Made by a program: the position numbers and the translations under genes. Source: Ilumatobacteraceae bacterium (GTDB taxonomy: Bacteria > Actinomycetota > Acidimicrobiia > Acidimicrobiales > Ilumatobacteraceae). From it: a DNA stretch of 42,788 nt. Location: the NCBI GenBank assembly GCA_017859395.1, contig JAFMNE010000019.1:1-42788 (forward strand), read 5' to 3'. Positions 12,738 through 42,788 of the stretch are shown piece by piece; the stretch's first letter is position 1, and every line of letters begins with the position of its first letter. The notes under the pieces were generated by a model. It saw only the letters and a program-made list of their open reading frames with translations. It was not told where the DNA came from and did no database searches.

Positions 12738-14012
12738 GTGCCCGACACCACCCCCCGTCGCGGTTCTGCAGACGGCGCGCGCGCTGTCCTACGGAACCGC
12801 GCCTTTCGCGCCATTTTTGTTGGGGCCACCGTGTCAAACATCGGGACATGGATGCAGAACTTCACTCTGCCGGCCTACGTCGATGAGCGAACAGGGTCTG
12901 CGGGACTGGTTGGGCTGCTCGTCTTCGCGCAACTCGGGCCGCTTCTATTGCTGTCGGTGCCGGCGGGTGTTGTGGCGGACCGGGTGAACCGCACCCGGTT
13001 GGTGGTCGCCATGCAATGCACCATGCTCGCCCTGTCGCTGGTGCTCGCAGTGTTGGTCAGAGCAGAGTCCGCGCTGGTGTGGGTCTTCATCGTGCAATTG
13101 GGCATCGGTATTGCGAACACGGTTCAAGCACCAGCGTTCTCGTCGAGTCTTCCGATGCTGGTCACGCCCGAACAGTTGCCCGCCGCCGTGAGCTTGAACT
13201 CTGCGATGATCAACGGCAGTCGCATCATGGGCCCAGCACTCGCCGCTCTGGCCGCGGTCCTTGGTGCACAGCTATGGCAACTGTTCGCATTGAACGCGGT
13301 CACCTACCTCGTATTTATCGTGGCTCTTCGCTCGGTGGGGCTTCCGGCTCCACCAACGCGACGCTCAGCGGGACTTCGAGCGTTGACCGACGGGATTCGC
13401 CTAGCTGCGCAGCGGGCGATTCTCGGCCGGATTCTGGTGACGATGTTTTCGTTCTCGTTGCTGTGCCTGCCCTTCATCGGGTTGTTTCCGTCGGTGGCTC
13501 GTCTCAATTTCGGACTCGAGCCAGACGGAACGGCGTATCGGTTGTTGTACGTCGTGTGGGGTATTGGTGCGTTCGTGGGATCGCTCGCCGTTGGATCGAT
13601 CCTGCACGGCCGCGATCGCCGGGATTTGATCCGCATCGGGTTCGCGGTTTTCGCTCTTTGCCTTGCGATTTTCGGCCTGACGTCATCACCTATGATCGCC
13701 TTTGCAATTGCGGGTGTGCTCGGCGCGTCCTATTTCATGACCGCGACGTTGCTCGTCACAGAGTTGCAGGTCAACCTGGCAGATACAGAGCGTGCGTCAG
13801 TGATGCCGCTGTGGTTCATGGTCTTCGGCGGAACGGTCCCCCTTGGCAATGTCATCGCCGGGCCCATCATGGACCACGTTGGGGCCCGCCCGGTGCTCAT
13901 CTTTGGAGCTCTCGCCGCGGTGGCAATCGGCTACGTCGGCGACATTGCGCGTAGCGAACGCCTCGGGCAGGTCGTCACAACGCCCACCACTGGACCGTCA
14001 CGGCAGATTTAA
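12738..14012 (+). CDS. MFS transporter, EntS/MFS_3-like exporter
   Basis: A 424-aa polytopic membrane protein with about 12 hydrophobic segments. The N-terminus LRNRAFRAIFVGATVSNIGTWMQ is typical of the MFS_3 (enterobactin exporter-like) family, followed by the loop PAGVVADRVNRTR, which corresponds to the MFS loop 2-3 motif. I place the start at GTG 12738; upstream in-frame starts as far as 12666 overlap the divergent zinc-ribbon gene. The substrate is unknown; exporters of this family handle siderophores, drugs or other small molecules. It converges on murF, the two stop codons sharing a TTAA at 14009-14012. Confidence 0.88.
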   Translation: MPDTTPRRGSADGARAVLRNRAFRAIFVGATVSNIGTWMQNFTLPAYVDERTGSAGLVGLLVFAQLGPLLLLSVPAGVVADRVNRTRLVVAMQCTMLALSLVLAVLVRAESALVWVFIVQLGIGIANTVQAPAFSSSLPMLVTPEQLPAAVSLNSAMINGSRIMGPALAALAAVLGAQLWQLFALNAVTYLVFIVALRSVGLPAPPTRRSAGLRALTDGIRLAAQRAILGRILVTMFSFSLLCLPFIGLFPSVARLNFGLEPDGTAYRLLYVVWGIGAFVGSLAVGSILHGRDRRDLIRIGFAVFALCLAIFGLTSSPMIAFAIAGVLGASYFMTATLLVTELQVNLADTERASVMPLWFMVFGGTVPLGNVIAGPIMDHVGARPVLIFGALAAVAIGYVGDIARSERLGQVVTTPTTGPSRQI

Positions 14013-15322
14013 GGACGGAACGCAGAGATGATCTCGGCGGCCACTGTCTCGAGTTGGGCACTACGTGACGCTTTCACAATAATTCCGACCCGGCGCGACC
14101 CCGCTGTCAGCTCCCGCAGGGCGCCGATGACGTCCTCGACAGGTGGCTGCCCATATGCCGATGTTCCAACGGCGACCACATCAATTCCGCGCTGTGCAGC
14201 CTCGGCCGCGATGTTGCGATGTTGCTCGTCGCTGTCGGCGATTTCTGCCATGGCCCCAAGCACCGCCACTCGTCGATCCACATCCATGGATGCCAGCGCA
14301 TCAAGTGCCGCCACCATCGACGTTGGATTTGCGTTGTAGGAGTCATCCACCACGATGCAGCGGCCAAGATCGACCGTACGCATGCGATGTGACGACAACG
14401 ACACTGCCTCGACCGCTCCAAGACCGTCGAGGGACCCGGTGACGACACCACACACGGCAGCGGCGGCAAGGGTGTTCGACACCATATGGGCACCCGGAAC
14501 CGGAATACGCAGCTCACTACTCCCCCACGGCGAACGCACGATGACCCTGTGGCAGCCGAGGTAATCAATGTCGAGGGTCTCAGCGCGAACATCTCCCCTG
14601 CTCCCGTACGTCACCACGTCGGCGGTTGTGAGAATGGCCATCGCCACTACCCGATCGTCATCTGAGTTCAGTACGGCGGTACCGGACGCGGGAAGTGCCC
14701 GGACGAGTTCTGCTTTAGCGGTCGCCACATAGTCGAGTCCGCCGAGCAGTTCGGTGTGCGCTGCACCGACCCGGGTCACCACCCCGATATCGGGATGCGC
14801 CACATCACAGAGTCGCGAAATCTGTCCGAGACCGCGCATGCCCATCTCGCAGAGAATCACGGGAATCCGATCCGGGGCGTTGACAATTGTCGAGGGCACA
14901 CCGAGGTCGTTGTTCAGGCTGGCGACCGCCGCGTGCACGCCATGAGATGCCAATGCAGCCGCGACCAAGTCCTTCGTCGTGGTCTTGCCGACACTGCCCG
15001 TCACTCCAACAACGCATTGGGGGGCATGTCCATCGGTCGATCGCAACCAGCGAGCGAGCGCGCCGAATGCGTCGGTGGCCGATGTGACGTCGATTGCGGT
15101 CAGCGAGTCATAGCCGTGGCCGCGCTCGGTCAGGGTTGCCGCCGCACCACTCGTAACAGCATCAGCGATGAACTCATGGCCATCGCGCTCGGCTACGACG
15201 GGTACAAAGAGCATGCCGGTGGCGAGATCACGGGTGTCGAATGATGCACCATCGATATCGACATCAGGGCCGATCAGTCGCCCACCGGTGGCACGAGCGA
15301 CGTCGGATGCACGAAAGCGCAT
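14009..15322 (-). CDS. murF: UDP-N-acetylmuramoyl-tripeptide--D-alanyl-D-alanine ligase MurF
   Basis: A 437-aa Mur ligase from ATG 15322, the start that gives the normal MRFRASDVARATGG opening; the frame remains open upstream into ddl but adds no homology. The ATP loop is GVTGSVGKTTTKD (106-118). Further family features are NNDLGVPSTI, MGMRGLGQI, HTELLGG and VDDSYNANPTSM. MurF adds D-Ala-D-Ala to UDP-MurNAc-tripeptide in the cytosol. It lies back to back with ddl, which makes its dipeptide substrate, only 24 bp apart, so the two share one promoter region. Other dcw-cluster genes are absent. Confidence 0.96.
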   Translation of the reverse strand: MRFRASDVARATGGRLIGPDVDIDGASFDTRDLATGMLFVPVVAERDGHEFIADAVTSGAAATLTERGHGYDSLTAIDVTSATDAFGALARWLRSTDGHAPQCVVGVTGSVGKTTTKDLVAAALASHGVHAAVASLNNDLGVPSTIVNAPDRIPVILCEMGMRGLGQISRLCDVAHPDIGVVTRVGAAHTELLGGLDYVATAKAELVRALPASGTAVLNSDDDRVVAMAILTTADVVTYGSRGDVRAETLDIDYLGCHRVIVRSPWGSSELRIPVPGAHMVSNTLAAAAVCGVVTGSLDGLGAVEAVSLSSHRMRTVDLGRCIVVDDSYNANPTSMVAALDALASMDVDRRVAVLGAMAEIADSDEQHRNIAAEAAQRGIDVVAVGTSAYGQPPVEDVIGALRELTAGSRRVGIIVKASRSAQLETVAAEIISAFRP

Positions 15323-15346
15323 GGCTGTGAAAGGTACCGTGCGGCG

Positions 15347-16432
15347 ATGAGCTCTGGCACGGCATCGGGCGTATTCGCCGCTGATGAGATCCCAGGATCC
15401 GAGCTCGTCATCGTTGCTGGTGGCCGGTCGGCGGAACACGACGTATCACTCGTCAGCGGTGCTCACCTCTGGAGTGCCGCCGTCGAAGGTGGCGCCGATG
15501 TCACCGGCATTGGCATTTCACGCGATGGTGTGTGGCATCACATTGCATCTGACCATGGGCCGGAAACAGGAGCCCCCTTCGCAATCAATGGTCCCGAGAT
15601 TGGCATCGGTGCGCTGGTGGCAGCGGCACAGCGAGGTGCAGTGGTCGTCCCCGCGCTCCATGGCCCACTCGGCGAGGATGGCACCTTCCAAGGAGCCTGC
15701 GAGGTGGCTGGAGTTGCCTATACGGGAGCGGGGGTTCTCGCCTCGGCACTGTGCATGAATAAGGCGGTTGCAAAACGGTTCTTAGCCGGAGCTGGGATAC
15801 CCCAGACTCCCTTTGTTGTCGTCAACGGCAGCGACAGCATCGATACGGTTCGCGAACGATCGCAGCACCTCGGTTTTCCGCTGTTTGTGAAGCCGTCGAG
15901 CATGGGATCCTCTATCGGCGTGTCCAAAGTCGGTGACCAGGATGCACTGGCAGCCGCTGTTGCCCGCGCGGGGGCGTACGACGACTGCATCGTGATTGAA
16001 CAGGCTGTGATCGGACGCGAAATCGAGATCGCGGTCCTCGGACGTCGCGACACCATGGTCTCCCGACCCGGCGAGATCCACGTCGGTGCGGAGTTCTACG
16101 ACTACCACGACAAGTACACAGATGACCGGGCAACGGCTAGCGTGCCCGCAGATCTTCCAGCGGCGGTAGCCCAACGGGTGCACGAACTCGCTCTGGAAGT
16201 CACCAGTGTTCTCGGGTGCCGAGAAATGGCGCGCTGCGACATGTTCGTCACCGAAGACGGCGCTGTCTTGCTCAACGAGGTCAACACGATCCCTGGTTTT
16301 ACGCCGATCTCCATGTACCCGAAGATGATGAACGACGTCGGCGTAAGCACGGTGCACATCTTGAACCGCCTTGTGGCCGACGCGCGTGCGCGACACGCAC
16401 GTTCCCAACAGCGTTCAACTGCTCACGGCTGA
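15347..16432 (+). CDS. ddl: D-alanine--D-alanine ligase Ddl
   Basis: A 361-aa ATP-grasp ligase. Family features are GGRSAEHDVSL (Glu30, Ser34), HGPLGEDGTFQG (105-116), the ATP-grasp segment FPLFVKPSSMGSSIGVSKV, and the C-terminal metal-binding LNEVNTIPGFTPISMYPKM. It joins two D-Ala molecules, and the product is used by MurF encoded divergently next door. The start is ATG 15347; 24 bp separate it from the murF start. The length fits actinobacterial Ddl. The 3' end overlaps the convergent TetR gene by 18 bp. Confidence 0.96.
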   Translation: MSSGTASGVFAADEIPGSELVIVAGGRSAEHDVSLVSGAHLWSAAVEGGADVTGIGISRDGVWHHIASDHGPETGAPFAINGPEIGIGALVAAAQRGAVVVPALHGPLGEDGTFQGACEVAGVAYTGAGVLASALCMNKAVAKRFLAGAGIPQTPFVVVNGSDSIDTVRERSQHLGFPLFVKPSSMGSSIGVSKVGDQDALAAAVARAGAYDDCIVIEQAVIGREIEIAVLGRRDTMVSRPGEIHVGAEFYDYHDKYTDDRATASVPADLPAAVAQRVHELALEVTSVLGCREMARCDMFVTEDGAVLLNEVNTIPGFTPISMYPKMMNDVGVSTVHILNRLVADARARHARSQQRSTAHG

Positions 16433-17053
16433 ATTCATCACCGCTGCGCGAACAAACGCGCGAACTTCACGCCGCAAGCGCCGAAGTCCGGCAATGCCGC
16501 CGCCCGGAGTCATCACGCCACGCGCCACCGGATCGGCTGCAATCCCCCCGATACAGGCGTACAACAGACCCACCATCACCGCAGGGTCGCCACGCCGGAT
16601 TCGCCCCTGACCCATCTCTCGTTCCAGCACATCCACTGCAGCTTTGACGAGGGGCCGTAATCGACTCGTCACCGCATCGGACCTGTCAGACGGAAGGTGA
16701 CGAAGATCGCGCAACACCCCGAGTAAATGCGGGCGACGCACGGCTGCGTCAAATACGGTCACAACGATGGTGTCCACCTGTGCCAGCGCATCCGTTGGCC
16801 CCTCAGCAATGGCGGCGAGGACCTCGGTCACAAGTTCATCGACAGTCACGTCGATCACGGTGTCGACAAGTGCAGCCCGGGAGCCGAACCAATACAGGAC
16901 CGTCTGCTTGCGCACGCCAGCGGCAACGGCGATCTCATCAAGTGAGACATGGTCGATTCCCCGGGTGCCAAGCAGCTGCGCGGTGACAGCAACGATCTGC
17001 TGCGCTGTTGGGCTTGTGCGTCGCCCGGATCGCATCACGGTGGCCCCGGTCAT
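16415..17053 (-). CDS. TetR/AcrR family transcriptional regulator
   Basis: A 212-aa protein from ATG 17053; an ATG at 17035 is also possible, and a longer frame to 17125 would run through the operator. The N-terminal helix-turn-helix is clear (GIDHVSLDEIAVAAGVRKQTVLYWFGSRAAL, written here across two helices). The C-terminal ligand domain is helical and ends with a basic tail. The 57-bp gap to the divergent acyl-CoA reductase gene holds a perfect palindrome, so this protein very probably represses itself and the four-gene operon. An acyl-CoA or fatty-acid ligand would be in keeping with the enzymes controlled, but that is inference. Confidence 0.9.
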   Translation of the reverse strand: MTGATVMRSGRRTSPTAQQIVAVTAQLLGTRGIDHVSLDEIAVAAGVRKQTVLYWFGSRAALVDTVIDVTVDELVTEVLAAIAEGPTDALAQVDTIVVTVFDAAVRRPHLLGVLRDLRHLPSDRSDAVTSRLRPLVKAAVDVLEREMGQGRIRRGDPAVMVGLLYACIGGIAADPVARGVMTPGGGIAGLRRLRREVRAFVRAAVMNSAVSS

Positions 17054-17064
17054 CCCATGATGTG

Positions 17065-17100
17065 TAGCAGGTTCTCTACCAACTGGTAGAGAACCTGCTA
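17065..17100. promoter_or_regulatory. Perfect 2x17-bp palindromic operator between tetR and the acyl-CoA reductase operon
   Basis: The left arm tagcaggttctctacca (17065-17081) and right arm tggtagagaacctgcta (17084-17100) are exact reverse complements with a 2-bp spacer (ac). The dyad lies 11 bp upstream of the tetR ATG on one side and 10 bp upstream of the GTG of the reductase on the other. Its position, symmetry and length match a TetR-family operator serving both genes; the arms could hold two overlapping dimer sites. Because so little space remains, the promoters must overlap the dyad and the transcripts may be nearly leaderless. Confidence 0.88.
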
Positions 17101-17110
17101 GAACACTCCT

Positions 17111-19450
17111 GTGATCCCCGATCAATTGGCTGGCTCGACCATCGCCATCACCGGTGCAACCGGCTTTGTTGGTACCGCATTGGTCGAACGCCTCTTACGG
17201 TGCGTTCCCGATTGCCATCTGGTTCTGATTGTGCGCAACGGTCGACGTACGAATGCCCAACGGCGCACCGCTCGAGAGATTCTGTCCAACGACGCCTTCG
17301 ATCGATTGCGTTCCGAACTGGCCGACGGCCCAGAGTCATTCGATGACATGTGCGCGCGGCGCATCACCACGCTTTCCGGCGATGTCGGCAGCGACGGCCT
17401 GGGCCTCGATGACGACGCACGTGCCATCTTTGCTCGCTGCGACACCATCATCCACTCCGCTGCAACGGTGTCGTTTGATTCACCGCTCGACTCTGCGGTG
17501 GAGATCAATCTCTTGGGCCCAACCCGGATCGCCACGCTGTGCCAGGACCTCGGGGTGACACCCCATCTGGTTGCTGTGTCAACGTGCTACGTCGCTGGCA
17601 ACCGACGCGGTACCGCACCCGAGGACCTGGTGTCTGCGGGGCCATTTGGTATCGGCCTCGACTGGCGTGCCGAGGTCACAGCAGCGCGCCGGCTGAGATC
17701 AGACACCGAAGCAGCAAGTCGCGAACCGGATCGCCTCGCCGAAATCAGGCGACGCGCACATCGCGAACTCGGTCCTGCAGGCGCGCCGGCCCTCGCCGCC
17801 AAGGTTGAGCAGCTCCGCGAACGATGGGTTCGCGATCGCCTGGTAGAGGCAGGTCGTGCACGAGCTGCCAGTGTCGGCTGGCCCGATGCCTACGCCTTCA
17901 CAAAAGCCCTTGGTGAACAGGCTCTTGTCGAGTCGTGCGGAGATCAGCCCGTCTCGATTGTGCGCCCCTCCATCATCGAGTCCGCCTGGGCTGAACCACG
18001 ACCCGGGTGGATTCGCGGCTTCCGGATGGCGGAGCCGGTCATCATCTCGTACGCGCGCGGTCTGCTGCGCGAATTCCCCGGTGTCCCTGAAGGCACCATT
18101 GATGTCATTCCGGTCGACATCGTGGTCGCCGCCATCATCGCCGTCGCCGCCCGCGGGCCCGATGGGCCATTGGTCACCCAAGTCGCATCAGGGGGTGTCA
18201 ACCCACTGCGTTATCGCGCAATGGTCGATGAGGTGGCCGCGTGGTTTGGAGAACACCCCCTCTATGACCAAAAAGGCCAACCCATCGTGGTGCCAGAGTG
18301 GCGGTTTCCGGGTCGCGGTCGAGTGCAAGGTCAACTTCGTCGGGCGCAGCGCGCACTTGGCGTCGCCGAGCGTGGATTACACGCACTTCCTCTGCGAGGC
18401 CGACAGGCGGAATGGTCCGCAGCCGTCGAAGCCCGTCGTTCGGACATCGACCGAGCGATGGAATACGTCGAGCTGTACGGCCTGTACACCGAATGCGAAG
18501 CGATCTACCAGGTCGACAATTTGATGTCGCTGTGGGAGTCCTTGGATTCTGACGATCAGGACGCATTTTGTTTTGACCCCAGAGTCGTTGACTGGCCGCA
18601 CTACATCAGCCACATCCACCTTCCATCGGTCATCCAACATGCGCGCGTGCGTACGACCCCTGGACGTTCTCGCTCCACTGATCGATCGGCACGGCTGCGC
18701 TCACAGGTGCTTGCCCCGTCCAGGCATGTGGCAGCCTTCGATTTGGAGAACACCCTGATTGCATCGAATGTCGTGACCAGCTACAGCTGGCTCGCCACGC
18801 GCCGTCTCGATCCCGTTGATCGCGTTCGGTATGTCGCCAAGACCTTGGCCGAGGCCCCCGGACTTCTTCGGCTGGACCGGCGTGACCGCACCGACTTTCT
18901 TCGACACTTCTACCGTCGCTATCGCGATGCCCCGGTGGAACAGGTGGCACACGACACCGAGGAGATGCTCGGTCATCTGATCTTGGCCAATTGTTTTCCC
19001 GATGGGTTGCGACGCGTGCGTCAGCACCGGGCCGCGGGTCACCGTACCGTATTGATCACGGGCGCACTCGACTTCCACGTCGCCGGCCTCGCACCTCTCT
19101 TCGACGAAATCATTGCCGCGGAGATGACCGTTGACGGCGACCGATACACCGGCGAGATGGTGACCGTTCCCCCAACGGGAGAGGCTCGAGCACAACTCCT
19201 CGATGAGTACTGCCAACGCGAGGGTCTCGACCTTGCCGAGTGCGTTGCCTATGCCGACTCGTCATCAGATCTGCCTCTGCTCGAGGCCGTTGGATTTCCC
19301 GTGGCCGTCAACCCCGAAACACGCTTGGCGGCAATTGCTCGAACCCGTGGCTGGCTCGTTGAGGACTGGCGCCGGGTGAAAGGTGCACGTCGACCTCCCC
19401 TGCCATTGGGCCCGCTCAGCACGCCAATCAACACACGGGTGCGACGATGA
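17111..19450 (+). CDS. Fatty acyl-CoA reductase (FAR/NAD_binding_4) fused to HAD-IB phosphatase-like domain
   Basis: 779 aa from GTG 17111. Residues 1-380 are a thioester-reductase-type SDR: cofactor loop GATGFVG (15-21), HSAATVSFD, Ser157 in VSTCYV and Tyr261/Lys265 in YAFTKALGE, with a charged helical insert at about 185-255. This is the fold that reduces acyl-CoA to aldehyde or alcohol. About 380-520 is a FAR C-terminal-like linker region. Residues 538-745 are a HAD-IB domain: motif I FDLENTLI (Asp544), motif II LITG, motif IV YADSSSDLPLL (Asp716, Asp720). The second catalytic Asp of motif I is Glu546 and the motif III Lys appears to be Arg693, so phosphatase activity may be altered. First gene of the TetR-controlled operon; ATGA overlap with the next gene. 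Confidence 0.87.
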   Translation: MIPDQLAGSTIAITGATGFVGTALVERLLRCVPDCHLVLIVRNGRRTNAQRRTAREILSNDAFDRLRSELADGPESFDDMCARRITTLSGDVGSDGLGLDDDARAIFARCDTIIHSAATVSFDSPLDSAVEINLLGPTRIATLCQDLGVTPHLVAVSTCYVAGNRRGTAPEDLVSAGPFGIGLDWRAEVTAARRLRSDTEAASREPDRLAEIRRRAHRELGPAGAPALAAKVEQLRERWVRDRLVEAGRARAASVGWPDAYAFTKALGEQALVESCGDQPVSIVRPSIIESAWAEPRPGWIRGFRMAEPVIISYARGLLREFPGVPEGTIDVIPVDIVVAAIIAVAARGPDGPLVTQVASGGVNPLRYRAMVDEVAAWFGEHPLYDQKGQPIVVPEWRFPGRGRVQGQLRRAQRALGVAERGLHALPLRGRQAEWSAAVEARRSDIDRAMEYVELYGLYTECEAIYQVDNLMSLWESLDSDDQDAFCFDPRVVDWPHYISHIHLPSVIQHARVRTTPGRSRSTDRSARLRSQVLAPSRHVAAFDLENTLIASNVVTSYSWLATRRLDPVDRVRYVAKTLAEAPGLLRLDRRDRTDFLRHFYRRYRDAPVEQVAHDTEEMLGHLILANCFPDGLRRVRQHRAAGHRTVLITGALDFHVAGLAPLFDEIIAAEMTVDGDRYTGEMVTVPPTGEARAQLLDEYCQREGLDLAECVAYADSSSDLPLLEAVGFPVAVNPETRLAAIARTRGWLVEDWRRVKGARRPPLPLGPLSTPINTRVRR

Positions 19451-20622
19451 AGGCATTGCGCATTCACGACCGTGATCGGCGTTTTGCGGCGTCGCGGCTT
19501 GGTTCTGTGCTTGGCTCGCCCAACGCGCGTGGCCGCGGGCCCCTCAGTCTCGACACATCCGCGTTTCAACAGGCCCCAACGACGGAATGGCAGGAACTCA
19601 AGGTCATGTTGTCGGGCATCTGTGGTTCCGACCTTGCGCTGATCGAGGGTCGGGCATCGGCCTATTTCGACCCCTGGGTGACCATGCCGTTTATTCCTGG
19701 TCACGAGATACTTGCTCGGACCGCAGAGGGACACCGTGTCGTCATCGACCCTGTCCTTGGGCACCAATGTCGTGGTCTACCGGTTCCCGACGACGTCAGC
19801 GCCCCGGCCGATGGCCACGACTACAGCCACATGGTCGGCGGGCAAATCGAGCCTGGTATCCAAACAGGATTTTGTTGCTCGGCAGGAGGAGGTTGGGCCG
19901 AACGACTGTGGGCTCATCCGTCACAGATGCACTCCGTGCCCGAGTCCTTCAGCGATGAGCAGGCCGTCTTGATCGAACCCGTGGCAGGAGCCGTCCACGC
20001 CGCACTCATCGCCCTGAGGTCACGCGATGAGGCCCCACTTCTCAGCGTGATTGGATTGGGGACAATTGGAATCTCGACAGTTGCGGCGCTTCGGCATTTC
20101 CGCCCAGACGCGCGCATTGTCGCTGCTGGCCGTTACCCACACCAGTTGGAGGCTGCCCGGCAGGTCGGTGCCGATGTTGTCACCCGTTTCGATGGTTTGG
20201 CACGAGCACTGCGTCGGCTCACGGGTACCGCCATGATCGGGCCAGACACAGGCGGTGGAGCGGACAGCACATTGGACTGTGTCGGTTCTGGTGACACCCT
20301 CCGCACCTCGATCGGCACCACTCGCCCTCGTGGTCGTGTGGTTGCTGTCGGTATGCCGGCGGAGGTCACGGTTGACCTCGCTCCGCTGTGGCACCGCGAA
20401 ACTGAGCTGGTCGGTGCGTATACCTATGGCACCGAAGATGTGGCCGGTGTACGACGCCATAGTTTCGAACACGCAATTGACGTGATCTCCTCGTTCCCAT
20501 CACCCTGGCTGCTGAGCGCGACCTATCCGCTCAACCGGCATCGTGACGCACTAGCTCATGCCGCCACCGCCGGTCGGCGTGGCACGTTCAAAATCGCCTT
20601 TGATCTTCGAGAGGAAAACTGA
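19447..20622 (+). CDS. Medium-chain zinc-type alcohol dehydrogenase without structural zinc cysteines
   Basis: A 391-aa MDR-family dehydrogenase. The catalytic zinc ligands are present: Cys59 (GICGSD), His86 and Glu87 (PGHEI) and Glu177 (LIEPVA). The cofactor loop is VIGLGTIG (201-208). The lobe that normally carries four structural-zinc cysteines (about 103-145) has only Cys108 and the adjacent pair Cys143/Cys144, so that site seems lost. An N-terminal extension of about 25 residues precedes the catalytic domain. The ATG overlaps the reductase stop as ATGA, and the stop overlaps the larA-like start as TGATG. Likely role: oxidation or reduction of an alcohol/aldehyde in the same pathway; substrate unknown. 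Confidence 0.88.
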   Translation: MKALRIHDRDRRFAASRLGSVLGSPNARGRGPLSLDTSAFQQAPTTEWQELKVMLSGICGSDLALIEGRASAYFDPWVTMPFIPGHEILARTAEGHRVVIDPVLGHQCRGLPVPDDVSAPADGHDYSHMVGGQIEPGIQTGFCCSAGGGWAERLWAHPSQMHSVPESFSDEQAVLIEPVAGAVHAALIALRSRDEAPLLSVIGLGTIGISTVAALRHFRPDARIVAAGRYPHQLEAARQVGADVVTRFDGLARALRRLTGTAMIGPDTGGGADSTLDCVGSGDTLRTSIGTTRPRGRVVAVGMPAEVTVDLAPLWHRETELVGAYTYGTEDVAGVRRHSFEHAIDVISSFPSPWLLSATYPLNRHRDALAHAATAGRRGTFKIAFDLREEN

Positions 20623-22208
20623 TGCCACGTCCCGGATTCGTCCTCGATGTCGACCGCTCAACTCCACCGATGCTGTTCTGGCACGGCGAGCGCTTCAGTT
20701 TGGAGCGCCTCCCGGCCGATCGGTCACGGGTCATATATCCCGCCGAGCCTCACCCTGGTCTGCGCGATGTACGCGCGGAGATTCGACGGGCCATCGCCGA
20801 ACCGCTGGATTCGGAGCCCCTTGCTGAACTCCTCAACCCAGACATGAAGCTCACCATCTGCTTCGACGATGTCAGCCTCTCCTTGCCGAAGATGCGTCGA
20901 CCAGATGTCCGCCAGCTCATTGTTGAGGCCGTGCTGACCGAAGCCGCAGCCGCTGGCGTCGATGATGTGCACATCATCGCTGCACTGGGGCTACATCGCC
21001 GCATGCATGATCACGAATTGCGCCATGTGTTGGGCGATCGGGTGGTCGACTCATTCGCGTCGTCTGGGCATCTCTACCAGCACGATGCCGAAGATCCCGA
21101 CAACCTGACGGTGATTGGCACCACTGATCATGGTGAGGTCGTGGAAATCAACCGTCGCGTCGCCGAAAGCGACCTTGTTGTCTACGCAAACGTCAACCAG
21201 GTCGCGATGGACGGTGGATGGAAGTCGCTCGTGACCGGTGTCGCGTCATACAGATGCCTGAGCCACCACCACAATCCGCAGTCTCTGGAGAACACGCGCA
21301 GCCTCATGGACCGTCACCACTCAGCGCTGCATCATTCGATTTGGCGGATGGGGTCGGTGTTGCGCGACCATGGCCCTCGCGTTTTTCAGATCGAGACCAC
21401 AATCAATACCGACGCATTTCCAAGTCCCTTTGATTTCCTATCCAAGCGCGAGTGGGAATGGACTGCGCGTGACCGCGCCAGTTACCTCGCGACATCCAAA
21501 AGCCTCGATCGGACACCAACACGTATTTCCCGGCGCATTTTCCACTCGATCAAGGCGCCATACGCGGTCACTGGTGTGAACGCAGGTTTCACCGAGACGG
21601 TGCACGAACGAACCCTTGCTGAGGTGTATCGCCAGCATGTTGTCGAAGTCGAGGGGCAGACCGACATCTTGACGATGGGCATTCCCTTCATCTGCCCGTA
21701 CAACCCTGACTCGGTCATGAACCCGATCCTGGTCATGTGTATGGGACTGGGCTACATGTTCAACATGTACCGCGGTCGGCCACTCGTTCGTGAGGGCGGA
21801 GTCATCATCATGACGCACCCGACGTATCGCGAATTCGACCCGGCGCACCATCCGTCGTATATCGACTTCTTCGACGAAGTACTCGCCGACACGACTGACC
21901 CCCATGAGATGTCCGTGAAATGGGAGCGCAAATACGCCGAGGATGAGTGGTACCGGCATCTCTACCGCACGCAGAACGCTTACCACGGTGTGCACCCGTT
22001 CTATGCGTGGTACTGGGGTGCACACGGCCGAGCATGGGCATCACGGGTCATCATCGTTGGTGGCCACCCCGACACCGTTCGGCGGCTCGGATTCACGCCG
22101 GCATCCACGATGACCGACGCGTTCGAGCTGGCTTCGGATGTGGTCGGAACCCGCCCCACGATCACCCACCTGCATGTCCCGTCGGTCCTCGTTGCCGATG
22201 TGAGGTAG
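20622..22208 (+). CDS. LarA-like (lactate racemase domain, DUF2088) protein
   Basis: 528 aa, about 100 longer than typical lactate racemase LarA. The N-terminal domain keeps the pattern of nickel-pincer enzymes: FDDVSLSLPKMRRPD (Asp83), ALGLHRRMHDHELRHVLG (His125), HDAEDPDNL (His154), GGWKSLVTGVASY (Lys201, in the position of the lysine that binds the NPN cofactor) and LSHHHNP (His215-217). LarA homologues racemise or epimerise 2-hydroxy acids or sugars. The maturation genes larB, larC and larE are not in the window, so the cofactor must come from elsewhere or be absent. A GAGAGG lies 7 bp before the ATG. Third gene of the operon; specificity cannot be inferred. Confidence 0.83.
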   Translation: MPRPGFVLDVDRSTPPMLFWHGERFSLERLPADRSRVIYPAEPHPGLRDVRAEIRRAIAEPLDSEPLAELLNPDMKLTICFDDVSLSLPKMRRPDVRQLIVEAVLTEAAAAGVDDVHIIAALGLHRRMHDHELRHVLGDRVVDSFASSGHLYQHDAEDPDNLTVIGTTDHGEVVEINRRVAESDLVVYANVNQVAMDGGWKSLVTGVASYRCLSHHHNPQSLENTRSLMDRHHSALHHSIWRMGSVLRDHGPRVFQIETTINTDAFPSPFDFLSKREWEWTARDRASYLATSKSLDRTPTRISRRIFHSIKAPYAVTGVNAGFTETVHERTLAEVYRQHVVEVEGQTDILTMGIPFICPYNPDSVMNPILVMCMGLGYMFNMYRGRPLVREGGVIIMTHPTYREFDPAHHPSYIDFFDEVLADTTDPHEMSVKWERKYAEDEWYRHLYRTQNAYHGVHPFYAWYWGAHGRAWASRVIIVGGHPDTVRRLGFTPASTMTDAFELASDVVGTRPTITHLHVPSVLVADVR

Positions 22209-22211
22209 TTC

Positions 22212-23204
22212 GTGACACCTGATCGTTTCCAGTTACAGCGTGTGCTCGGCACGACTGAGCGCGCGGTGCGCTTCGCCATGAAGCCCCTTGCGGGTATGGG
22301 CTTTCCTCTGCGCGCGCCGACCACTCCGCGCGGGGTCATCGTTCCCGATCAACCCGACACTCTTGGAGCCGCGTACGACACGGAGTGGGCGCGACGTCCT
22401 GTCGCCACAATTTCCAGATCTCTTATCGTGAACGGCCCCTTACGACTTGCCGTTGGGGTTCTCACGCGTCCGCGTGTCAGCGGACTCGATCGCCTCAGCG
22501 CTCTGGAGAACGGTGACGACACCATGCCGGTGGTATTTGCTGCGAACCACGAGAGCCACCTAGACACCGCAATTCTGATTCACGCAATACCTCGTTGCTG
22601 GCGCCGAGAGCTCGTCGTGGCTGCAGCCGCTGATTATTTCTTTGATCGCCGATGGAAGGCGGCGTCGGCTTCGCTGGCATTGAACGCCGTGCCAATCGAT
22701 CGTCACCAGACAGGTCGGCGATCGGCAGAGACATTCAGAGGTCTCCTCGACGACGGATACAGCATTTTGATCTATCCAGAGGGTGGACGGTCACCCGATG
22801 GCTGGGCACAGGAGTTTCGGGGCGGCGCGGCCTATCTTGCCCAGCGCGCAGGAGCACCGATTATCCCGATCTATCTCGAAGGCTCGGGGGCGATCTGGGG
22901 TAAAGGCGCTCGCCGCTTTGTGCCCGGGCGCACACAGGTTGTGTTCGGAGAACCGATCATGCCGGATGCCGACATGTCATCGCGCAAGGTCGCTGCTCGT
23001 CTCGGGAGCGATGTGGCCCGTTTGGCCGACGAGGCGACATCGTCATGGTGGGAAGCGACACAGCGATTCGCGCGCGGGTCAACGCCTTCGCTCAGCGGCC
23101 CCGAGACCACCTCGTGGCGACGATCATGGGCGTTGCATGAACGGCGTCGACGCACGAAGTCCGGTCGGCCCCGGCCGCGTCCCGAATGGCCACACCTCAG
23201 TTGA
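22212..23204 (+). CDS. PlsC-type 1-acylglycerol-phosphate acyltransferase family protein
   Basis: 330 aa from GTG 22212, three bases after the LarA-like stop. Acyltransferase block I is NHESHLD (His113, Asp118) and block III is YPEGGRSPDG (Glu190, Gly191), followed by PIIPIYLEGSGAIWG as block IV. About 100 residues precede block I, more than in minimal PlsC, with a moderately hydrophobic stretch near 63-90. The C-terminus is basic and probably disordered. The family transfers acyl groups from acyl-CoA or acyl-ACP to glycerol-phosphate-like acceptors at the membrane. Being the last gene of the TetR-controlled operon, it suggests that the pathway product is an acylated lipid. Confidence 0.88.
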   Translation: MTPDRFQLQRVLGTTERAVRFAMKPLAGMGFPLRAPTTPRGVIVPDQPDTLGAAYDTEWARRPVATISRSLIVNGPLRLAVGVLTRPRVSGLDRLSALENGDDTMPVVFAANHESHLDTAILIHAIPRCWRRELVVAAAADYFFDRRWKAASASLALNAVPIDRHQTGRRSAETFRGLLDDGYSILIYPEGGRSPDGWAQEFRGGAAYLAQRAGAPIIPIYLEGSGAIWGKGARRFVPGRTQVVFGEPIMPDADMSSRKVAARLGSDVARLADEATSSWWEATQRFARGSTPSLSGPETTSWRRSWALHERRRRTKSGRPRPRPEWPHLS

Positions 23205-42210: not shown

Positions 42211-42788
42211 CACTGCTGTTGTAGTCGCTTGGACACCTCGGCGTCCATCTCCAACCATCGTTGATCAAGCCAGGCCAGGCGGTCGTCACCCATGGGTACC
42301 TCGCTCCCCACCACACGTGTAAATGACAACTCGATCGGACCGACACCAGAGGCCAAACGTCGCCACATACCAGAGAAGGTATCCATCCCATCGAGACCCG
42401 TGTGCCGCGCAAAAATCACATCAATGCCAGGGGCAGCGTCCAATAATGCGTTCGTTCCGGCAGGCCGAATCGGCAGCAGTGCCGTGAGTGATTCGAGACG
42501 CGCGGCCCGCTCGGGCGACGTCTCACGAATTTTGGCCACTGCGCGCTGCCGCTTCGCAGAGTTGGCCCGGGTCCCTTCTGGGAAAATCACAACCACGGTT
42601 CCTGATTCAGGCTCGACGTCACGCGTGAGCGCACCAATCGCGGCCAATTCCTCACCACCATCCGCCGCAGACCGATCAAGGAAATGGTTCGGCAGTCGGA
42701 GCCCAACAACATCGAGACACGGGTCAGCGAGAAGTTCTCGCTTCAGCACATACCGAGGCTCCACACCACACTGAGTGATCGCCCACGC
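42210..42788 (-). CDS. PlsC-like acyltransferase, N-terminus beyond the right edge
   Basis: The frame is open to the last base of the window, so only 192 C-terminal codons are visible; an in-frame GTG at 42764 is inside the gene, not its start. IFPEGTRANSAKRQR is acyltransferase block III, and before it LLADPCLDVVGLRLPNHFLDRS resembles block II. The His-x4-Asp catalytic motif must lie upstream, outside the window. The C-terminal part has the LPIRPAGTNALLDAAP segment seen in the long-insert group of 1-acylglycerol-3-phosphate acyltransferases. The stop overlaps the DUF1295 start. Confidence 0.82.
   Translation of the reverse strand, partial: AWAITQCGVEPRYVLKRELLADPCLDVVGLRLPNHFLDRSAADGGEELAAIGALTRDVEPESGTVVVIFPEGTRANSAKRQRAVAKIRETSPERAARLESLTALLPIRPAGTNALLDAAPGIDVIFARHTGLDGMDTFSGMWRRLASGVGPIELSFTRVVGSEVPMGDDRLAWLDQRWLEMDAEVSKRLQQQ

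Follow-up and report, generated by a model that had tools for sequence, protein, structure and literature searches.

What is made by an operon in which a fatty acyl-CoA reductase (FAR), a dehydrogenase, a LarA-like nickel-pincer nucleotide (NPN) enzyme and an acyltransferase are kept together behind a TetR repressor? The question is raised by a stretch of 42,788 nucleotides from an Ilumatobacteraceae bacterium (contig JAFMNE010000019.1 of assembly GCA_017859395.1), here called the window, which is contig C69 of a draft genome of 2.25 Mb with a completeness of 95%. The answer that we prefer, with a probability of roughly 45%, is that this TetR-gated operon modifies the glycerophospholipid backbone and most likely makes 1-O-alkyl (ether) glycerophospholipids. 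In this answer we infer all the chemical steps, the ether product and the ligand of TetR. An earlier reading made from the letters of the DNA could not put a name to the pathway, and the combination is not named either in the part of the literature that was searched.

The four genes are on the plus strand. The first, with a GTG start, codes for a FAR–HAD fusion (17111-19450); it is followed by genes for a zinc-type MDR dehydrogenase (19447-20622), the LarA-like enzyme (20622-22208) and a PlsC-type acyltransferase (22212-23204). The junctions are ATGA at 19447, TGATG at 20620-20624 and a 3-bp gap before the PlsC gene. On the other side of a short gap lies the divergent gene for the dedicated repressor (tetR, 16415-17053, minus strand), and the gap holds an operator (17065-17100) which is a perfect 17+2+17 inverted repeat. 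The open reading frames and the sequence confirm the genes, the junctions and the perfect operator that the sequence-only reading had listed. They also speak for its proposal that the genes are transcribed together under the control of a single TetR operator, where one transcript is predicted from the gene junctions.

The same reading had supposed that the four genes serve a single pathway, and this is strongly supported by a check of their co-occurrence in other genomes. All co-occurrence counts given here are raw and uncorrected for shared ancestry. In a sample of 396 genomes spread evenly over the phylum, 86 have a protein over the cut-off of the profile NF052592 (LarAH14/15/16), and 170 have any match at E 0.001; the 14 control genomes gave one match, under the cut-off. 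The neighbourhood was taken for 82 of the 86 (left out were the window genome, G146 and G021, where the gene is at a contig end, and G270), and 58 of the 82 have the flanks demanded, 5.5 kb upstream and 1.6 kb downstream, while 24 were dropped. FAR–HAD is present in 57 of these 58 loci, MDR in 56 and an acyltransferase in 55 (PlsC in 38, PlsY in 17). The incomplete ones are L080 without MDR, L090 and L095 without acyltransferase in the available stretch, and L122 with nothing. In a sister LarA clade, which scores 419 to 540 bits against NF052592, none of the 10 flanked loci has any operon partner.

Among the best 80 named loci listed, 52 have enough flank (4.5 kb upstream, 1.5 kb downstream), and FAR, HAD, the LarA-like protein and PlsC are found in 52/52, a divergent TetR gene in 45 and MDR in 41. 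As the remaining 11 gave no MDR, this gene is not essential, and the operon core is FAR–HAD, the LarA-like protein and a glycerol-phosphate acyltransferase, with an MDR that can be absent. At closer range, in 38 genomes of the order and class, the LarA-like gene is carried by 21, and full-length FAR–HAD by exactly those 21 (with the G156 copy divided between two contigs); the 17 others show HAD-domain matches only, in 16 cases, or nothing, in one. Chance clustering is ruled out by the co-occurrence and co-inheritance counts. A record titled Bifidobacterium breve contains a locus (L171) arranged like L168 and L169, which come from unclassified Actinomycetota and Ilumatobacteraceae, and the title of the record is probably a mislabel of the assembled genome.

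The reductase part of the fusion, residues 1-520 (17111-18670), consists of a Rossmann domain (NAD_binding_4, 194.2 bits) and a Sterile-type C-terminal domain (36.6 bits). Its best match in the PDB is 7eoz, 'Fatty acyl-CoA reductase', with 206.7 bits over residues 4-520, where other thioester reductases reach at most 38.2 bits, and the motifs TGxTGFxG and Y261xxxK265 are kept (142 aligned rows). NAD_binding_4, the Sterile domain and the catalytic YxxxK are thus all found, as in a fatty acyl-CoA reductase. The HAD-IB phosphatase-like domain, residues 541-738 of the fusion (18731-19324), scores 104.5 bits with TIGR01490 (cut-off 98.3) and 100.2 bits with PF12710; in motif I the first Asp and the Thr are kept, and in motif IV both Asp (149 aligned rows), and it is an intact domain of the phosphatase type. 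The MDR protein (ADH_N and ADH_zinc_N; PF00107 65.4 bits) is closest in the PDB to the NADP(H)-dependent ketose reductase 1e3j (63.5 bits), followed by sorbitol dehydrogenases, and scores 31.4 bits with the fatty-aldehyde reductase model Ahr; its residues C59, H86, E87 and E177 are kept (133 aligned rows). PlsC (PF01553, 72.8 bits) matches the 1-acyl-sn-glycerol-3-phosphate acyltransferase 5kym with 48 bits and keeps the motifs H113xxxxD118 and PEGxRS (125 aligned rows). The motifs named for the reductase, HAD, MDR and PlsC are their catalytic ones. Two steps of the sequence-only reading, reduction of an acyl-CoA and acylation of the product into a lipid, gain predictive support from these matches.

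A third step of that reading, in which a racemase-like protein would adjust the stereochemistry of a hydroxylated intermediate, finds no support in the active site of the LarA-like protein. This protein has a Lar_N domain (133.6 bits, cut-off 23.3), and NF052592 matches it over its full length with 846 bits (cut-off 740). Residues were counted in 82 rows, one from the window and 81 from other loci, with positions mapped by alignment to solved LarA proteins. Four functional residues are found in 82/82 rows: Asp83 (codon 20868-20870), which corresponds to LarA Asp72; His125 (20994-20996), which corresponds to the catalytic His108; Lys201 (21222-21224), equivalent to Lys184, the covalent holder of NPN; and His217 (21270-21272), equivalent to the nickel ligand His200. 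Asn192 (21195-21197), an Asn in 81/82 rows, is at or beside the position that the second catalytic histidine, His174, has in LarA, the exact pairing hinging on an alignment gap; no row has a His at positions 190-192. At position 86, the place of LarA Arg75, which binds the NPN phosphate and the substrate carboxylate, the rows have Leu (54), Ile (17), Cys (10) or Val (1), and Arg or Lys in none of the 82. Since both the second catalytic histidine and the carboxylate-binding arginine are lost, ordinary racemisation of 2-hydroxyacids is unlikely, and a hydroxyacid racemase of canonical mechanism was ruled out by the loss of the His174 and Arg75 equivalents. We file the protein as a member of LarAH14/15/16, of the type with a single catalytic histidine, and not as a hydroxyacid racemase; what it has in common with that family is the full-length match, the kept NPN residues and the lost second catalytic histidine.

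We know of no substrate for LarAH14. The second catalytic histidine is described as lost in LarAH groups 14 and 15 (PMC12611868), a LarAH14 from Frankia had no activity in seven 2-hydroxyacid isomerisation assays (PMC7583248), and a Phytophthora protein called LarAH15 belongs to the GntE branch and is a gluconate 2-epimerase (PMC11770544), for which reason the LarAH group numbers may not mean one function. These observations bear on a route close to the one first proposed, in which the LarA-like protein isomerises or redox-shuffles 2-hydroxyacyl chains, FAR turns them into 1,2-diols or hydroxy-alcohols, and acylation gives long-chain diol lipids replacing glycerol. FAR and MDR could together yield diols, and some thermophiles have long-chain 1,2-diol lipids. 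The LarA relatives of known activity do use 2-hydroxy acids (PMC7583248, PMC11770544). The absence of the second histidine, the replacement of the carboxylate-binding arginine in every row and the negative assays of the Frankia protein are however at variance with such substrates, and we consider the route unlikely.

The structural relatives are of the single-histidine kind as well. An AlphaFold2 model of the LarA-like protein (pLDDT 83.7, pTM 0.86) is closest in fold to the single-histidine LarA structures 9q3k (Foldseek E 1.5e-28) and 9q3j. The best sequence matches are the single-histidine LarA of Streptococcus plurextorum (9q2u/9q3k, 178.8 bits) and that of Blautia wexlerae (9q3j, 144.9 bits), the species being given in PMC12611868; a role in carbohydrate metabolism is proposed for those proteins. 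The one catalytic histidine is shared with them, but identity is about 20% and the loop at the place of the second histidine aligns shorter in the window protein. With 84-82% identity, the best five relatives that carry a name come from metagenome genomes titled Ilumatobacteraceae (2), Acidimicrobiaceae (1) and unclassified Actinomycetota (2). The search for plasmid-borne copies gave remote LarA matches only, in 6 records, none of them with a query coverage of at least 80%. The sister clade (L125-L138) has the same NPN residues and mostly an Asn at the place of the second histidine, and is a second single-histidine clade. Three further LarA-like proteins (L139-L141, family f51), with about 150 bits to NF052592, are without the NPN lysine, the nickel histidine and the catalytic histidine; they are probably not NPN enzymes and were excluded from the family rows.

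The window genome has the genes for making the cofactor: LarB (235.6 bits, cut-off 175), LarC1 (170.5, cut-off 90), LarC2 (123.8, cut-off 50) and LarE (265.1, cut-off 150) are all over their cut-offs, larB and larC abutting on contig C92 and larE being on C94. With larB, larC and larE present, NPN can be made. LarC was found in 19 of the 21 order and class genomes with the LarA-like gene and in none of the 17 without it, while in the phylum sample, tallied by eye, 76 of the 86 carriers have it, as do 172 of the 310 others; the tie is accordingly tight in the class and loose outside it. Each carrier sampled in the order and class has one match to the NF052592 profile, more distant LarA proteins not being searched for. 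This, together with the way LarC follows the gene, suggests that the LarA-like enzyme may be the main reason for keeping NPN biosynthesis there.

The lipid backbone on which the operon may act is suggested by its variant in family f25. This is the Rubrobacter family, because a 4,558-bp stretch of the plasmid NZ_CP031116.1 of R. indicoceani is 100% identical, at the same coordinates, in its member G076. In 20 loci of this family a PlsY-type gene, named by eye from one representative and by PF02660 in four genomes, is directly upstream of FAR–HAD. The PlsY of the operon is the sole PF02660 match of the genome in G076, G011 and G053, and is accompanied by two weaker matches in G041. A committed phospholipid step inside the operon argues that the operon serves bulk membrane lipid, and an acyltransferase slot filled by either of the unrelated PlsC and PlsY suggests a glycerol-phosphate lipid as the common substrate. 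PlsY in this slot also points away from the diol lipids considered above. According to the title of a 2023 paper by Sinninghe Damste et al., mixed ether/ester lipids reportedly dominate in five Rubrobacterales species. The abstract of the same paper reportedly mentions a putative 1-O-alkyl glycerol phosphate operon, which may be the one treated here, and if so the functional link is already partly in print. In three Rubrobacter-family loci (L089, L090, L095) about 6 kb of extra genes stand between MDR and the LarA-like gene, the order of the parts being kept; judged by eye these include a MOSC-like protein in all three and a globin-like protein in L089 and L090.

The same PlsY genes weigh on a storage-lipid route, in which FAR gives the alcohol for wax esters, PlsC leads to triacylglycerol, and the LarA-like protein and MDR serve to supply, or to recycle, glycerol-derived carbon or redox. 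The alcohol of wax esters usually comes from a FAR. Several WS/DGAT genes occur in Ilumatobacter and Microthrix, and triacylglycerol storage has been reported for Microthrix (PMC10351704). Against this, Pfam found no WS/DGAT among the operon proteins, the route gives no reason for the NPN enzyme or for its inheritance together with FAR–HAD, and three Rubrobacter-family genomes have their sole PlsY in the operon, which makes storage a very improbable purpose.

The ether-lipid scheme would run as follows. FAR would reduce an acyl-CoA to the fatty aldehyde or alcohol, and the alkyl group would be placed on sn-1 of glycerol-phosphate. Two enzymes, the LarA-like NPN protein and the MDR that resembles ketose reductases, would act at the ketone (glycerone) level, and PlsC would acylate sn-2; in Rubrobacter, PlsY would supply 1-acyl-glycerol 3-phosphate to the same route. 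If the ether lipid is the product, the operon would be a missing ether-lipid route of Actinobacteria and would put a rare nickel cofactor to a new use. The LarAH14/15/16 nickel-pincer family is linked here, over the phylum sample and by exact co-inheritance in the order and class, to the formation of fatty alcohol and the acylation of glycerol-phosphate, so that an orphan family becomes a lipid enzyme open to direct testing.

Three known routes were compared with this scheme. The Ger/PlsA pathway has a DUF2229-containing reductase. A search with PF09989 for this ester-reductase route gave no match in 7/7 genomes, and matched 4 of the 14 controls. AGPS carries PF02913 (FAD-oxidase_C), of which the window genome, 95% complete, has 0 matches; among the 17 PF02913 places of the six other genomes, 16 have an E-H-G motif, which we take to be of the glycolate-oxidase type and not the His-rich motif of AGPS, and the 17th is a short fragment beside one of them. 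Compared with the animal and myxobacterial pathway of FAR1, GNPAT, AGPS, alkyl-dihydroxyacetone-phosphate (alkyl-DHAP) reductase and AGPAT, the window operon has candidates for the FAR, the acyltransferase and the ketone reductase, but the genome has none for AGPS, and the LarA-like enzyme would have to fill that slot. The elb operon of Myxococcus xanthus shares a FAR-type domain, a HAD-family protein (ElbB) and an AGPAT-like acyltransferase with the window operon (PMC9131029); it differs by the acyl-CoA synthetase and ACP domains of ElbD and by an ElbE-type protein, none of which is among the Pfam matches of the window operon, where MDR and the NPN enzyme are found instead. Membership of the elb, AGPS or Ger/PlsA type was ruled out, as the defining parts were not found, and we file the operon as working most like an ether-lipid operon without being any of the three.

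The empty AGPS-type slot, with the other steps filled, makes the NPN enzyme by elimination a candidate for the ether-forming exchange. This can be taken further into a quite unlikely proposal, in which the LarA-like protein would act as an ether-lipid synthase that depends on NPN and forms the sn-1 ether bond without AGPS or Ger/PlsA. At C2 of 1-acyl-sn-glycerol-3-phosphate a proton would be drawn off by His125 and a hydride by NPN, so that a bound glycerone is formed; the activated C1 would then exchange its acyl group for the fatty alcohol made by FAR, and the hydride would go back to the same face. Because it returns to the same face, one histidine would be enough, and such a one-histidine, hydride-borrowing enzyme would fit both the kept and the lost residues. 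If this were true, one enzyme would do the work of AGPS and of alkyl-DHAP reductase, and NPN would serve a group exchange and not an isomerisation.

Several points weigh against an ether-lipid operon. To our knowledge, no enzyme of the operon is a known ether synthase. The HAD domain is without a step in the scheme, and neither this domain nor the 11 of 52 named loci in which MDR was not found, nor the carriers without LarC, are explained by it. A LarC match is missing in 10 of the 86 carriers of the phylum sample; the carriers G263 (98% complete) and G294 (96%) are without one, and in these two an assembly gap may be the cause, or a larC in two pieces, or some other source of the cofactor. 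The link to Rubrobacter lipids comes from a paper title. The flanks of L122, which is over the NF052592 cut-off, contain no partner gene. The single-histidine site is shared by the sister clade, in other neighbourhoods, so that the chemistry need not be specific for lipids. LarAH group 16, lumped into NF052592 by name, is said in PMC7583248 to be without the NPN residues; unlike this, the 82 rows used here keep them. Homologues of elbD are present in Pontiella, yet ether lipids were undetected there (PMC11868695), so genes by themselves do not prove the lipid. Among the papers listed in the searches, none reports ether lipids in Acidimicrobiia or links NPN to ether lipids, and lipid data for the window organism were not found in the literature searched.

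The regulation of the operon looks local and dedicated. TetR (212 aa from the ATG at 17053; TetR_N 36.7 bits, cut-off 24) is best given this start, because a longer reading frame of 236 aa would overlap the operator. The operator, TAGCAGGTTCTCTACCA-AC-TGGTAGAGAACCTGCTA, is a perfect inverted repeat of 17 nt, 36 bp in all, and is a single site in the whole genome of 2.25 Mb even when up to 3 mismatches are allowed. It lies 11 bp from the tetR ATG and 10 bp from the FAR GTG, and at such distances from both start codons one bound repressor could cover both promoters. No sigma-70-like promoter was recognised (0, against 1.5 +/- 1.3 in shuffles).

A core CTACCA-N0-4-TGGTAG is found in the tetR/FAR junction of 38 out of 51 related loci with a divergent tetR and has 0 matches in the remaining 777,223 bases of these loci. 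In a sample of 11 genomes from the family, 9 have the operon, and the core is directly before it in 8 of the 9; the carrier G123 is without the core, G188 has one extra stray site, and the 2 genomes without the operon have none. As a control pattern, the core reversed, gives 0 to 5 matches per genome in this sample, the significance of the core rests on its placement before the operon and not on its bare count. A wide regulon of the exact core was not seen across the family genomes, degenerate sites not being searched.

In the ether-lipid scheme TetR would sense a lipid or an acyl-CoA and release its one dedicated operator. The same local control of TetR type, with the exact operator core found almost nowhere but at the operon, could also serve a catabolic or detoxifying operon which breaks down alkyl-glycerols or polyol lipids in the oxidative direction, TetR sensing the substrate, and dehydrogenase reactions are reversible. 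Such an operon is the least probable of the readings considered here, as PlsC and PlsY are biosynthetic, FAR belongs to a reductase family, and the placement of PlsY in the Rubrobacter family also speaks against breakdown.

Adjoining tetR, at 14009-16432, a gene for a MurF-like ligase (minus strand) stands head to head with a D-Ala-D-Ala ligase-like gene (plus strand), both named from their translations. At the contig end a weak, partial match to the PlsC family (24 bits) is found at 42552-42767 on the minus strand.

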